IMG/VR virus record: IMGVR_UViG_3300005441_000015
Span: 1-38,913 of that record
DNA from: a virus
Length of the DNA: 38,913 nucleotides
Direction: 5' to 3' (one strand)
The position numbers and the translations under genes are program-made. How positions within the stretch are numbered: position 1 is the first letter of the stretch; every line of letters starts with the position of its first letter. The notes under the pieces were generated by a model. It was not told the DNA's origin and did not search any database. It worked only from the letters and a program-made list of their open reading frames with translations. Of this stretch, positions 14,041-36,772 are shown in pieces.

Positions 14041-14766
14041 ATGCCAGAAGATGAAAACATTGAGGGTGTAGAGCCAGAAGTGGCCGAGGTTGTCCCCCCA
14101 ACCGAATCTAAAGAAGGTGCAGAAGAAAAGCTGAAGGCCGAGTCCTTTGCGAGAAAGTCGGAAGACCAAGATCGTAACTGGAAAGAAACCCGACGCAAAA
14201 TGCAAGAACTTGAAAGAAAAGCTAAGGAACAAGAAGAGCTCATCGCTCAGTTAAAGACGCCTGCAAGGCCTCCAGAAGTAGATGAACTAGACAAGCTCGG
14301 CGACGAAGATATCGTCACTAAAGGCCAAGCACGAAAGCTGGCTGCAAAAATGGCCGAAGAAATTGCCTCAAGAGTCATCCGCGAGCGTGAAAACGCAACT
14401 GTAGAAGATAGGCTCAATCTTAAGTTCCAAGACTTCAATCAAGTGGTAACAAAAGAAAATATTGAACTTTTAAAAGAAACCGAACCAGAACTTGCAATGT
14501 CCTTAGCGCAAAATACCGACCAATACAGTCAGGGGATTGCGGCCTATAAGTTACTGAAAAGACTAGGAATAGGAGAACCAGAAATGCCAAAAGAGCCTCT
14601 GCGTGAAAAACAGAAAGCAATTGCCAATTCTCAAAAACCTGTTTCTGTTAACGCAGTCACAAAATCTAGTGCCATCGGCAATGCCCATATGTTTGAAAAT
14701 GGTCTCACAAAGGAACTTAAACAGTCTCTTTGGGAAGAAATGGAAAGAGCGCGCAAGGGTTACTAA
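14041..14766 (+). CDS. Scaffolding protein (probable)
   Basis: A 241-residue, very charged, mainly helical protein, acidic at the N-terminus (MPEDENIEGVEPEVAEVV). It has a long coiled coil at about residues 30-85 and a basic C-terminal helix (KELKQSLWEEMERARKGY), the usual capsid-binding end of scaffolds. The position between portal and capsid is that of a scaffold gene. AAAGGA lies 7 nt before the ATG at 14041, so I prefer this to 14035. Assignment rests on composition and place, not on a recognised domain. Confidence 0.75.
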   Translation: MPEDENIEGVEPEVAEVVPPTESKEGAEEKLKAESFARKSEDQDRNWKETRRKMQELERKAKEQEELIAQLKTPARPPEVDELDKLGDEDIVTKGQARKLAAKMAEEIASRVIRERENATVEDRLNLKFQDFNQVVTKENIELLKETEPELAMSLAQNTDQYSQGIAAYKLLKRLGIGEPEMPKEPLREKQKAIANSQKPVSVNAVTKSSAIGNAHMFENGLTKELKQSLWEEMERARKGY

Positions 14767-14797
14767 GTTCCGGTTCATAACAACGGAAAAATGACTT

Positions 14798-15748
14798 ATG
14801 TCAATTACGACAACAAGCGTTCTCCCAGCACCAGTTCAACAATCATTCAGCTTTAAGCTGTTGAGCGTGCCAGTTCCTTACATGATCCATAAAATCCCTG
14901 CGGATTTAAAGGCCATGCCAAGAAACGGCGGAACTACGCTGAGAATGAGACGCTATAATCCGCTGGCAACTTCGCCAGTACCGCTTGGGAACAGTGGAAT
15001 TACACCTCCTCCCCAACAACTTACATCTGTAAACATTGATGCACAGATGGACTTTTATGGAACTTACATACTTTTGAACGAACAAGTAACTCTTCAAAAC
15101 CAAGACCCAGTCTTGAATGAAGCCACTCAACGTTTAGGAGTAGCTCTTCGTCAAACAGAAGACCAATTGATGAGCTCTATGCTTGCATCAACTGCTTCCT
15201 TCATTAACTGCGTTGGTGGTACAAACGGAGACAATCCTACTGAAGTCACACGTTCAGACGTTGATACAGTGATCAGAACTCTCCGCGGAAACAATGCTTA
15301 TTCATTCCTTTCAGGAGTTGAAGGGCAAGATAAATTTGGAACAGCTCCAGTACGTGATGCTTATTTTGGTCTTGGTCATACAGACCTGATTGGCCAATTG
15401 GATAACGTTTCTGGATTTATCCAAAAATGGAACTACCCACAACAATCTTCTACTCTGGATTCAGAGTGGGGAACAGTGGCTAACATCCGTTTCCTTCTGT
15501 CTTCTATTGGAAGCATTACACCTAATGCTTCTTTATTAGGTGCTAACGTCTATAACATTTTCTGCGTCGGTCGTGAAGCTTATTGCTCAATCGAACAAGA
15601 TGGTTATAGCGCTCAGTTCATCTATCGTCCGCCTATTTATGATTCACCATTAGCTCTCAACGCTTCTGTTGGCTATAAATTTGCCGAAGTTCCACGCATC
15701 ACAAACGATACCTGGGTGTTCAATCTTCGTTGCACCCTGTCATCATAA
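14798..15748 (+). CDS. Major capsid protein, N4-gp56-like
   Basis: This 316-residue protein resembles the N4-gp56 family of HK97-fold capsid proteins. The early segment MPRNGGTTLRMRRYNPLATSPVPL is the family's 'K-x-x-G-x-T-x-x-F-x-R-Y-x-P-L' block. A YGTYILLNEQVTLQNQDP helix region, a LRGNNAYSFL segment and the late SVGYKFAEVPRITNDTW end complete it. It lies directly after the scaffold and before the head-decoration-type protein. HK97-fold capsids assemble the icosahedral head. Confidence 0.8.
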   Translation: MSITTTSVLPAPVQQSFSFKLLSVPVPYMIHKIPADLKAMPRNGGTTLRMRRYNPLATSPVPLGNSGITPPPQQLTSVNIDAQMDFYGTYILLNEQVTLQNQDPVLNEATQRLGVALRQTEDQLMSSMLASTASFINCVGGTNGDNPTEVTRSDVDTVIRTLRGNNAYSFLSGVEGQDKFGTAPVRDAYFGLGHTDLIGQLDNVSGFIQKWNYPQQSSTLDSEWGTVANIRFLLSSIGSITPNASLLGANVYNIFCVGREAYCSIEQDGYSAQFIYRPPIYDSPLALNASVGYKFAEVPRITNDTWVFNLRCTLSS

Positions 15749-21520: not shown

Positions 21521-22005
21521 CCACATTTCAACCAGCCAATTCAAATGCTATTTTCTTGCCTACAACCATTCAATATCCTGAAGATCCGAAAGAGCTTTTA
21601 GAGCGTTTGAATAAAGCCTATGAAGATACGGCTACGAGACTGAATTCAAAACAAATTGGAATATTTGATTTAGTTGAATTCTTGACTGGTGAACAGTGGC
21701 CTGTAATTGGGAATCCTCAACAAAAAAGACAGACATTTCGAAAAGTTTTCAATTTTGGTGCAATTGCTCCTGGAGCAACATTAACGATTGCTCATGGATT
21801 AACTGGAGTGACTGCTTACACCCATATTTATGGGACTGCAATCACGAACGTAGTAGATAACCGACCCATTCCTTATGCCTCAGCGACACTAGTTACAAAT
21901 CAAATTGAAATCAATGTGGATGGGACCAATATCAATATTATCAACGGCGCGACTGCCCCAGCGATAACTTCAGGATTCGTAATTTTAGAATATCTCAAGA
22001 ACTGA
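21517..22005 (+). CDS. Tail protein, fibre-attachment type
   Basis: A 162-residue protein. The ATG at 21517 overlaps the previous stop (ATGA), so I reject the upstream frame start at 21475. The helical N-terminus (YPEDPKELLERLNKAYEDTATRLN) precedes a C-terminal beta region with GATLTIAHGLTGVTAYTHIYGTA. That pattern occurs in small tail proteins of podophages. The function is inferred from this and position. Confidence 0.55.
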   Translation: MTTFQPANSNAIFLPTTIQYPEDPKELLERLNKAYEDTATRLNSKQIGIFDLVEFLTGEQWPVIGNPQQKRQTFRKVFNFGAIAPGATLTIAHGLTGVTAYTHIYGTAITNVVDNRPIPYASATLVTNQIEINVDGTNINIINGATAPAITSGFVILEYLKN

Positions 22006-22077
22006 CGCTTCATCCAAGGATCGAACTTGGGACAAACGGCTTAACAGGCCGCTGCTCTGCCGCTGAGCTAATGAAGC
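22006..22077 (-). tRNA. trnN: tRNA-Asn (GUU)
   Basis: A 72-nt cloverleaf. The seven-base acceptor stem GCTTCAT/ATGAAGC and T arm CCAAG-TTCGATC-CTTGG are perfect. The anticodon loop CTGTTAA contains GTT. The 3' CCA is not encoded. It lies on the minus strand immediately after a structural gene and upstream of no leftward gene. It is paired with tRNA-Thr. Confidence 0.95.
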
Positions 22078-22079
22078 AA

Positions 22080-22151
22080 TGCTAGCGAAAGGAATTGAAC
22101 CCTCAACCGACCGCTTACAAGGCGGTTGCTCTACCATTGAGCTACGCTAGC
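22080..22151 (-). tRNA. trnT: tRNA-Thr (UGU)
   Basis: A 72-nt cloverleaf. Acceptor stem GCTAGCG/CGCTAGC, anticodon stem ACCGC/GCGGT around CTTGTAA (anticodon TGT), T loop TTCAATT with a G-U-containing stem. The CCA is not encoded. It decodes ACA, and lies 2 nt upstream of tRNA-Asn in the same leftward transcript. No clear -35/-10 is visible. Confidence 0.95.
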
Positions 22152-34821: not shown

Positions 34822-35163
34822 CTACATTTTGTTAAAGGGTATCTTTGGATCGTGATATCTACAAGCTTCTTCATAAATAGAGTCATAAGCATTTTGGAGC
34901 TCATTCAAGAAAGTCCTTTTATCCTGCTGCGTCGATACAGGATAAGCAATCTTACTTAGCTTCGATTCAACTGGAGGTGTCCACCAAACCCAGATCAAAA
35001 CATTGTCTTTTGAGTCATTCTTAGTCATTGCTAAGTTCCATTCCTTCGAAAAGAAATGGGTCTTATAAAAATCTCTAGCTTCATTTAAGTTGATCAAAGC
35101 GTCTGGGTGAGCAGTGCGTTTAGGTTCTCCTTCTCTAGGGGACCAAATAACTTCAGCGGACAT
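34822..35163 (-). CDS. Hypothetical protein of the replication operon
   Basis: A 113-residue protein. I start at the ATG 35163, which follows GGAGGTAGTT; the longer frame from 35208 lies inside the initiator gene. It begins MSAEVIWSPREGEPKRTAHP and has a LIWVWWTPPVESK strand and a helical end. It overlaps the initiator gene by 11 nt, so the two are probably co-translated. No family recognised. Confidence 0.6.
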   Translation of the reverse strand: MSAEVIWSPREGEPKRTAHPDALINLNEARDFYKTHFFSKEWNLAMTKNDSKDNVLIWVWWTPPVESKLSKIAYPVSTQQDKRTFLNELQNAYDSIYEEACRYHDPKIPFNKM

Positions 35164-36100
35164 AACTACCTCCAAAGAGTGATATAAATAACTCTTTAAA
35201 CTGTTCATGAGGTAATTTGAAAGGAATTTCTTTACCTGAGCTTCGATTTCCTACGAAATTCTTATCAAAAGTCAACGCCTTGAGCTGTTCCGGATATTTT
35301 TCTTTCAGATTTAACGCGAACTGACGATTTTTAAAGATCATCTCTTCTTCTCTACCCGCTTCCATTTGCATGAGCATAGAGTCATAATCCTTCCTCAGCT
35401 TACCAGGACTTAGGCATGCCGTTTTGAACCATTTATGTGTGGAAGCCCAGATGATGATTTCACGAGTCTTTTCGACTGACCTCTTATCGATTCTAAGTAA
35501 CTTATCCATTTCACTAAGCCATATCGCTCGATTGGGGTCTTTGAACTCCGGATTTCTTTCTTTTATTTTTGTTAAAAAAAGTTCTAATAAACCCTCGGCG
35601 TCAGCCGATGGGGGGGTCGAAGACCCTTTCTTATGTATTTCTTTATCTGTAGTTTTAGGATCTGAGGATTTAGGATCTGGTATTGCTTTGGGGTTTTCAC
35701 CACATGGATTGGGGTTTTCCCCACCTCGATTGGGGTTTTCCCCTTTCGTAAACTTTTCTTCAATTTCGGGGTCTAGAAAAGCCTCTTCATCTACAAATGC
35801 ATACCACAGAGTTTTGTCAATTTTCAGTTTATTGAAGTTGCCTGTCTTCAAAACCCCCTCTTCAACTAATCCTTCACAATGGTGACGTATGCTGTCTTCA
35901 GACAAATAAGGTAAAGCTGCATTCATCTCAGATCTTTTTTGATACATCCACCAATGGCCATTTCTAAAATGAGTAGATGATTTTTTTCTTTTATTTAAAT
36001 TTATCCAATGCTGGAAGTGATGAATGAGAGCAGCTTTTTCCATTCCATATTTTATTGCTAAATGAACGCCGAATGAGTGAGTTTCTTTTGAGTACGACAT
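35153..36100 (-). CDS. Replication initiator protein (lambda O-type)
   Basis: This 315-residue protein has an N-terminal winged-helix-like region (residues about 1-105: EKAALIHHFQHWINLNKR... SEDSIRHHCEGLVEEGVLKTGN). A Pro/Asn/Gly linker follows with three GENPN-type repeats (about 119-140). The C-terminal helical domain contains KTREIIIWASTHKWFKTACLSPGKLRKDYDSMLMQ, the pattern of phage replication and helicase-loader proteins. The linker is encoded by the iteron array, exactly the lambda O arrangement. AGGAG precedes the ATG and is part of a hairpin. Function by analogy: binds the iterons and loads the host helicase. Confidence 0.75.
   Translation of the reverse strand: MSYSKETHSFGVHLAIKYGMEKAALIHHFQHWINLNKRKKSSTHFRNGHWWMYQKRSEMNAALPYLSEDSIRHHCEGLVEEGVLKTGNFNKLKIDKTLWYAFVDEEAFLDPEIEEKFTKGENPNRGGENPNPCGENPKAIPDPKSSDPKTTDKEIHKKGSSTPPSADAEGLLELFLTKIKERNPEFKDPNRAIWLSEMDKLLRIDKRSVEKTREIIIWASTHKWFKTACLSPGKLRKDYDSMLMQMEAGREEEMIFKNRQFALNLKEKYPEQLKALTFDKNFVGNRSSGKEIPFKLPHEQFKELFISLFGGSYVR
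35560..35743 (-). other. Putative replication origin with iterons
   Basis: Three 12-bp inverted-repeat iterons (GGGGAAAACCCC on the minus strand, the third with one change) start 21 bp apart at 35690, 35711 and 35732. The spacer GGAGGT/CATGT differs. A second set, TTTAGGATCTG (35654-35664 and 35669-35679), repeats at 15 bp. An AT-rich stretch lies at about 35560-35590. Lambda's origin also lies inside its initiator gene, with imperfect dyad iterons having AAAA at the centre and an AT-rich stretch next. Assignment as an origin is inferred. Confidence 0.6.
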
Positions 36101-36253
36101 GGAGTCTCCTAGTTAATTTAGGAGGCCCGGCAATAAACTATTTCTTTGAAGAAATTTCCCTTTTGGGATATCTTGAAGTTTAGTAAGATCTCAGACATTC
36201 GCTGATCTAAGACCTGAAATGGGGGCTCTACCGGGCCTCCTTTTCCATTTCTA
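36101..36253 (-). ncRNA. Structured 5' leader of the initiator gene (riboswitch-like candidate)
   Basis: The minus-strand leader holds a perfect 10-bp closing stem, GGAGGCCCGG (36231-36240) with CCGGGCCTCC (36121-36130). Inside are AGATC/GATCT (36186-36208), and TAAAC/GTTTA (36134-36182) enclosing two hairpins, TCCC-AAAA-GGGA and ATTTCT-TCAA-AGAAAT. Just 3' to the closing stem, CTCCTA (36116-36125 region) can pair with the ribosome-binding site TAGGAG, using bases that also belong to the closing stem. The two states exclude each other, which would control translation. Ligand or function unknown; no known riboswitch recognised. Confidence 0.6.
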
Positions 36254-36259
36254 GACCCT

Positions 36260-36289
36260 ATCCTAACTAACCAACCAAAATCTTGTCTA
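36260..36289 (-). promoter_or_regulatory. Promoter of the initiator operon
   Basis: On the minus strand TAGACA (complement of 36284-36289) is 18 nt from TAGGAT (complement of 36260-36265). Predicted start near 36253, so the structured leader begins about 12 nt into the transcript. Confidence 0.5.
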
Positions 36290-36373
36290 TTGATGTTTTC
36301 AAGTGTAATTTCTACTTGATCAAATTATAATTTCTTCATAAGATATTAAATGCCAACAAACCAAAGGCATCTT

Positions 36374-36772
36374 ATGCAAGATAATCTTGAAAGCAAAATT
36401 AAAACATACAATGAGCGCAGTTTTCAACATGCGCAGAACTGGAAGAAGATTCGTGCGCTAGTTAACTATTCAAAAACCATAGACGATTTCCAGGAGTGGG
36501 AGGCCCTGGAATTTATTATTCGTTATTTTGAGAAAGATTATCTGGATGATGCCCAAGAATCGTTTTTAAATTATGTTTTGTCAAAATACGGCATCGATTA
36601 TGACAAATGGTGCTATAAGACCTACTGGGTTAAGAAACAGCTTAAAAAGCCCGAAGCGCAACTTGAATTCTTCTTTCCTGATCTTGTAAAAGACCAAATT
36701 GAAGCTAGATCTAAAATGCCCCTATTCTCTAAGATCGAACGCTTCAAACTTTATCAGAATGAGGCAATGTGA
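36374..36772 (+). CDS. Hypothetical protein
   Basis: A 132-residue charged, aromatic-rich helical protein beginning MQDNLESKIKTYNERSF. I prefer the ATG at 36374, with AAAGG 7 nt upstream, over 36350, which lacks a site. A TATAAT at 36326-36331 may be its -10, without a clear -35. Its stop overlaps the next gene. No family recognised. Confidence 0.6.
   Translation: MQDNLESKIKTYNERSFQHAQNWKKIRALVNYSKTIDDFQEWEALEFIIRYFEKDYLDDAQESFLNYVLSKYGIDYDKWCYKTYWVKKQLKKPEAQLEFFFPDLVKDQIEARSKMPLFSKIERFKLYQNEAM

Follow-up and report, generated by a model that had tools for sequence, protein, structure and literature searches.

Does the RNA that precedes a phage replication initiator gene decide whether the initiator is translated, and what would set that decision? 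The question is raised by a structured leader in the window, the whole 38.9-kb stretch (38,913 nucleotides) of a virus record, which encodes a P22-like portal and terminase and RecE/RecT. The leader is read on the minus strand, as is the initiator gene, and is placed between a weak promoter (36289–36260) and the initiator ATG (36100). Its fold of −48.9 kcal/mol compares with −33.75 ± 3.75 kcal/mol for dinucleotide shuffles (z = −4.0), none of 200 shuffles being as good. The closing stem, hairpins, promoter and ribosome-binding site of the original prediction are all present, on the minus strand. The promoter before the leader is retained with a qualification: TAGACA-18-TAGGAT is a weak match to the consensus, yet it occupies the same position in all five leader sequences described below. 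The downstream open reading frame, predicted to encode a replication initiator, does match phrog_11233 (E = 4e-25) and the helicase loader phrog_2514 (3e-19). The features of this region are as follows.

36260–36289, minus strand: initiator promoter TAGACA-18-TAGGAT, from a consensus scan; transcription start predicted near 36252
36101–36252, minus strand: structured leader of about 152 nt, from its fold (z = −4.0) and homologous leaders
35153–36100, minus strand: replication initiator gene (315 aa), from PHROG matches
35688–35743, plus strand: iteron-like 21-nt tandem repeats inside the initiator gene, a probable origin

Elsewhere in the window, a GroES-like co-chaperonin is encoded at 1687–1953 (phrog_3188), and genes for tRNA-Asn and tRNA-Thr lie on the minus strand at 22004–22151, inside a tail gene block of the plus strand.

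Two helices of the leader compete for the same bases around the Shine-Dalgarno (SD) motif.

36229–36241, minus strand: 5′ arm of helix P1 ('pre-emptor'), AGGAGGCCCGGUA, forming a 13-bp helix with 36120–36132; compensatory changes
36120–36132, minus strand: 3′ arm of P1, pairing with 36229–36241 and overlapping the anti-SD arm
36119–36124, minus strand: anti-SD arm CUCCUA, 6 bp with the SD
36106–36111, minus strand: SD arm UAGGAG, ending 5 nt upstream of the ATG
36134–36182, minus strand: hairpin domain P3, one extended hairpin or two hairpins, from folding
36186–36215, minus strand: hairpin P2, formed in all five sequences with changed pairs

The closing stem first described at 36231–36240 and 36121–36130 is perfect and extends to the 13 pairs of P1, including one U·G. 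CTCCTA (36119–36124) is the perfect complement of TAGGAG (36106–36111), as had been proposed, and CTCCT is common to this pairing and P1. The distance from TAGGAG to the ATG is 5 nt, not 8 nt as previously given. P1 encloses P2 and P3. The 'third hairpin' of the earlier description is P2, paired in all five sequences. The 5-bp helix around two adjacent hairpins is found in one of two near-equal folds of the window (−8.8 vs −8.1 kcal/mol) and is not unique; a single extended P3 hairpin is favoured in the relative L027. The internal loop of P3 (CAAAGAAA) is largely kept, except in L030, and P2 and the junctions vary strongly among close phages.

Relatives were gathered by portal and neighbour searches, as records of one phage group. 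Homologous leaders of 140–159 nt were present in four other phage sequences, providing four further distinct leaders: L027 (also L028), L029, L030 and L035/L038. The check for compensatory substitutions in homologues was run and these were found in both helices, which backs the predicted mutual exclusion of closing stem and ribosome-site sequestration. Over the eight columns shared by the five sequences, P1 comprises 40 standard pairs out of 40, and five columns carry double-sided changes. The five pairs of P1 arms are AGGAGGCCCGGTA/TGCCGGGCCTCCT, GGAGGCCCCGC/GCGGGGTCTCC, GGGGCCCGTA/TGCGGGCCTC, GAGAAGGG/CCCTTCTC and AGGGGCCCGGCA/TGCCGGGCTCCT. Within this sample of five distinct sequences, which are related to one another, the covariation score of P1 was reached by none of 500 shuffles, all slid registers scored worse, and the matching of arms to their own partners ranked first among 120 permutations. 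The SD-hiding hairpin is paired at 30 of 30 positions, with two columns changed on both sides (variants CTCCTA/TAGGAG, CTCCAT/ATGGAG and CTCCTG/CAGGAG). As MAFFT alignments misplace the 3′ arms of P1, pairs were counted on extracted arms; these were taken by hand, and the same helices were recovered automatically in the scan of SD sites described below. The 112 pairs listed for P1 and P2 on the sense strand consist of 100 Watson-Crick and 12 G·U pairs, with no non-standard pair. The G·U pairs fit the sense RNA only, because they become A·C on the opposite strand.

The SD-site scan covered loci totalling 1.2 Mb and, in them, 3,789 SD-bearing start sites, overlapping loci and SD words being counted repeatedly. 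A 6-bp SD hairpin was found at 44 of them. At 28 of these 44 sites the hairpin was overlapped by a long-range helix of 8 bp or more, and all 28 were copies of the five leaders. Judged from these sequence comparisons, the leader is very probably a two-state translational switch with mutually exclusive helices. The gating of initiator synthesis, as originally proposed, would agree with this anatomy. A second, unrelated hairpin embedding an SD precedes the major head protein gene (window 14766–14800; L003 16648–16673; L005 17123–17148), with TTCCG/CGGAA in the window and GTTCC/GGAAC in the relatives.

The balance between the two states was examined with a folding model. Energies of the open and closed states in the five leaders were −51.7/−48.6, −45.0/−44.4, −44.5/−45.3, −40.2/−43.3 and −49.8/−47.6 kcal/mol. 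The difference is at most about 3 kcal/mol, which suggests nearly isoenergetic states. The SD was shut upon in silico deletion of the P1 5′ arm, so that removal of this arm is predicted to close the site. With the 5′ part blocked, modelled SD accessibility fell from 0.55 to 0.0 in the window and from 0.68 to 0.02 in L035; in L027, L029 and L030 the SD was modelled as already closed without antisense RNA.

A feature that the original prediction omitted lies on the opposite strand, exactly at the P1 5′ arm. It is a terminator-like hairpin, conserved at the homologous place in all five sequences, and it points to control by an antisense RNA.

36221–36250, plus strand: antisense intrinsic-terminator-like hairpin (36221–36240) with T-rich tail, at the P1 5′ arm
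36146–36174, plus strand: candidate antisense promoter TTGAAG-17-TATCTT (tentative), the best site by position weight matrix
36182–36245, plus strand: putative antisense RNA (about 64 nt) that would run from the candidate promoter to the terminator

The window hairpin has an energy of −14.2 kcal/mol on the antisense strand vs −7.6 on the sense strand. Across the five sequences the values are −13.4 to −16.3 vs −7.6 to −10.9 kcal/mol, the antisense version being stronger by 2.5–6.7 kcal/mol in each, and the G·U pairs of the hairpin fit the antisense strand. In L029 and L030 the T-rich tail is of mediocre quality. By its sequence, the hairpin looks like the terminator of a counter-transcript. The sense version of the same hairpin (P0) was not counted as a main sense state on account of A·C mismatches in three relatives. 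Candidate antisense promoters are located in P3, with scores that shuffles reach in 9–37% of cases, and a consensus scan near the leader in the window returned no antisense promoter site of at least 9/12. The putative window RNA would cover the P1 5′ arm. On this sequence evidence, antisense-RNA control of the leader is plausible, at slightly below an even chance.

The leader is not coupled to one initiator family. Promoter and leader are conserved, as are the divergent gene and the gene that follows the initiator, but the initiator between them is not: four dissimilar types stand behind homologous leaders. The window type matches phrog_11233/2514, that of L027 is HTH_36-like and that of L030 is a Phage_rep_O protein; the initiators of L029 and L035 are 31% identical, and those of L027 and L030 share 37% over 70 residues, part of the C-terminus. 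The swap came to light after a tblastn search with the window initiator against the leader-bearing phages, which found no relative. Autoregulation by the initiator is unlikely because the initiators behind the leader are exchanged, and the initiator was excluded as a general regulator. Direct repeats spaced by 21–23 nt were found inside the initiator genes of the window (35688–35743), L029 (1131–1174), L030 (1825–1867) and L035 (2358–2411). They differ in sequence between phages, which would be expected of initiators that each carry an origin of their own, in the manner of lambda O, and they are probably origin iterons that travel with the initiator. It is possible, if somewhat speculative, that a portable antisense/pre-emptor cassette has been retained while dissimilar initiators with their own origins were exchanged behind it.

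The searches delimit the distribution of the leader. The switch was found in one small phage group only (five distinct sequences), and a DNA search of annotated phages with the leader gave no match. A 16-mer from the P1 arm gave matches that were judged to be at chance level and were set aside. One metagenome-assembled contig (Methylococcaceae) carries a portal relative (55%); nhmmer detected no leader in the examined part of this contig or in the examined regions of G011 and G012, which are distant portal relatives. The proteins scanned included no recognisable integrase or partition protein; a need for copy-number control is therefore not obvious.

Upstream of the initiator promoter, an inverted repeat (TCAAGT-N9-ACTTGA, 36299–36319) lies between the divergent promoters; it is largely retained in the relatives and is a possible operator. 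The divergent gene (36374–36769) encodes a 132-aa protein, 83–86% identical in the relatives and better conserved than RecT or RecE. No host copy was found in scans of genome contigs, and a structural search with the AlphaFold model of the protein was discarded, the model being too poor.

There is an even chance that the leader is a plasmid-style translational switch set by an antisense RNA that captures the P1 5′ arm. In the open state, this arm (GGAGGCCCGG, the 'pre-emptor') would pair with the P1 3′ arm that holds CTCC, leaving TAGGAG free; in the closed state, CTCC(TA) would be paired with TAGGAG. The controller would be a short RNA of about 50–70 nt, transcribed antisense to the leader and stopping at the terminator that is conserved on the opposite strand. 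By capturing the P1 5′ arm it would free CTCC and shut off initiator translation. A rising phage copy number would provide more antisense template, and replication would be damped as in pSK41 and pT181.

The controllers suggested originally were a riboswitch, a thermosensor or a protein, and the set is weakened by the small temperature effect in silico, the confinement of the switch to one small phage group and the swap of the initiator. An RNA-binding protein of the phage or its host, such as the divergent 132-aa gene product, could set the same two states by stabilising either P1-P2-P3 or the SD hairpin, and the opposite-strand hairpin may then be a mere terminator that insulates the divergent promoter. 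The divergent gene is syntenic with the leader in every relative at 83–86% identity, and the P3 internal loop is largely conserved except in L030. The protein, however, has no family or structural match, its AlphaFold model is unreliable (pLDDT 47), and the initiator, being swapped, is excluded as general regulator; a protein controller is thus somewhat unlikely. Co-transcriptional folding could also act without any effector, delaying or tuning initiator translation, a role proposed for metastable hairpins of the aapA3 mRNA; P1 would then form and open the site when transcription of the leader has finished. The near-isoenergetic states fit such a kinetic switch, as does the failure to recognise a ligand domain, but the conserved antisense terminator, with G·U pairs that fit the antisense strand only, is left unexplained, and this reading is distinctly unlikely.

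A riboswitch for a metabolite or an ion, belonging to a class not yet described, would account for the anatomy, in which a P1/P2/P3 junction is combined with competition between P1 and SD sequestration, as in translational riboswitches. The original prediction recognised no known riboswitch class, and indeed none of the Rfam 15 covariance models matched the leader at the gathering threshold; up to E = 10, one 13-bit chance match (E = 9.7) was obtained and nothing beyond noise. With P2 and the junctions varying strongly among close phages, and an occurrence limited to five distinct sequences from a single phage group, a riboswitch is very improbable. An origin or operator acting as DNA, with the inverted repeats as protein or replication sites, would suit a position adjoining the initiator and the divergent promoters. 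It is more improbable still, given that the G·U pairs of P1 and P2 fit the sense RNA only, with 0 of 112 pairs non-standard, and that iteron-like repeats sit inside the initiator genes instead. The SD does lie within a short hairpin, as in a thermosensor, but modelled GGAG accessibility is nearly flat between 10 and 50 °C, changing by at most 0.06 in the window, L030 and L035 and rising only to 0.11 in L027 and 0.24 in L029, which makes temperature sensing scarcely credible. A leader-peptide attenuator was rejected, no conserved leader peptide being found: L027 and L029 have the 26-aa open reading frame of the window only in truncated or frameshifted form.

Plasmids classically use antisense RNA to control their initiator leaders. 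Among the known systems closest to the antisense-set switch proposed here is RNAI/rep in pSK41 and the staphylococcal RepA_N plasmids, where an initiator leader with an RBS-hiding stem-loop is opposed by a short antisense RNA; in pSK41 this RNA of ~83 nt is proposed to induce sequestration of the RBS ~100 nt downstream (PMC5703833). Likewise, the phage leader has two mutually exclusive helices, one of which hides the SD, and a counter-transcript terminator-like hairpin inside the leader in five of five sequences. The antisense RNA is demonstrated for the plasmid and only inferred for the phage, and the comparison is one of anatomy, the phage initiator matching phage O/DnaD-like families instead. 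In RNAI/repC of pT181, a leader pre-emptor similarly competes with the 5′ arm of the start-proximal hairpin, and the antisense RNA tips the balance (PMC5703833). The main output of pT181 is transcription termination, whereas the phage hairpin has no sense terminator tail and holds the SD. By anatomy, the phage leader would work like those of pSK41 and pT181; membership in that class is not claimed because the antisense RNA of the phage is putative.

Lambda OOP is likewise a short self-terminating antisense RNA beside an O-type initiator and origin module, with iterons inside the initiator gene, but it opposes cII, and switching of an O SD hairpin by OOP is not described in PMC3349717. The type I toxin mRNAs of aapA/IsoA and hok/Sok share mutually exclusive SD-sequestering folds under antisense control (PMC6733600). 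They differ in that the genes encode toxins and that sequestration depends on long-distance 5′–3′ pairing in the full-length mRNA (PMC6733600).

In the literature searched, no leader built in this way was found before a phage initiator gene. The leaders form a small covarying family in environmental phages, without an Rfam entry. If the proposed control is true, RNA-mediated gene-dosage feedback would act on phage replication, and the occurrence of the leader before dissimilar initiators would provide a natural experiment on the uncoupling of a regulator from its target.
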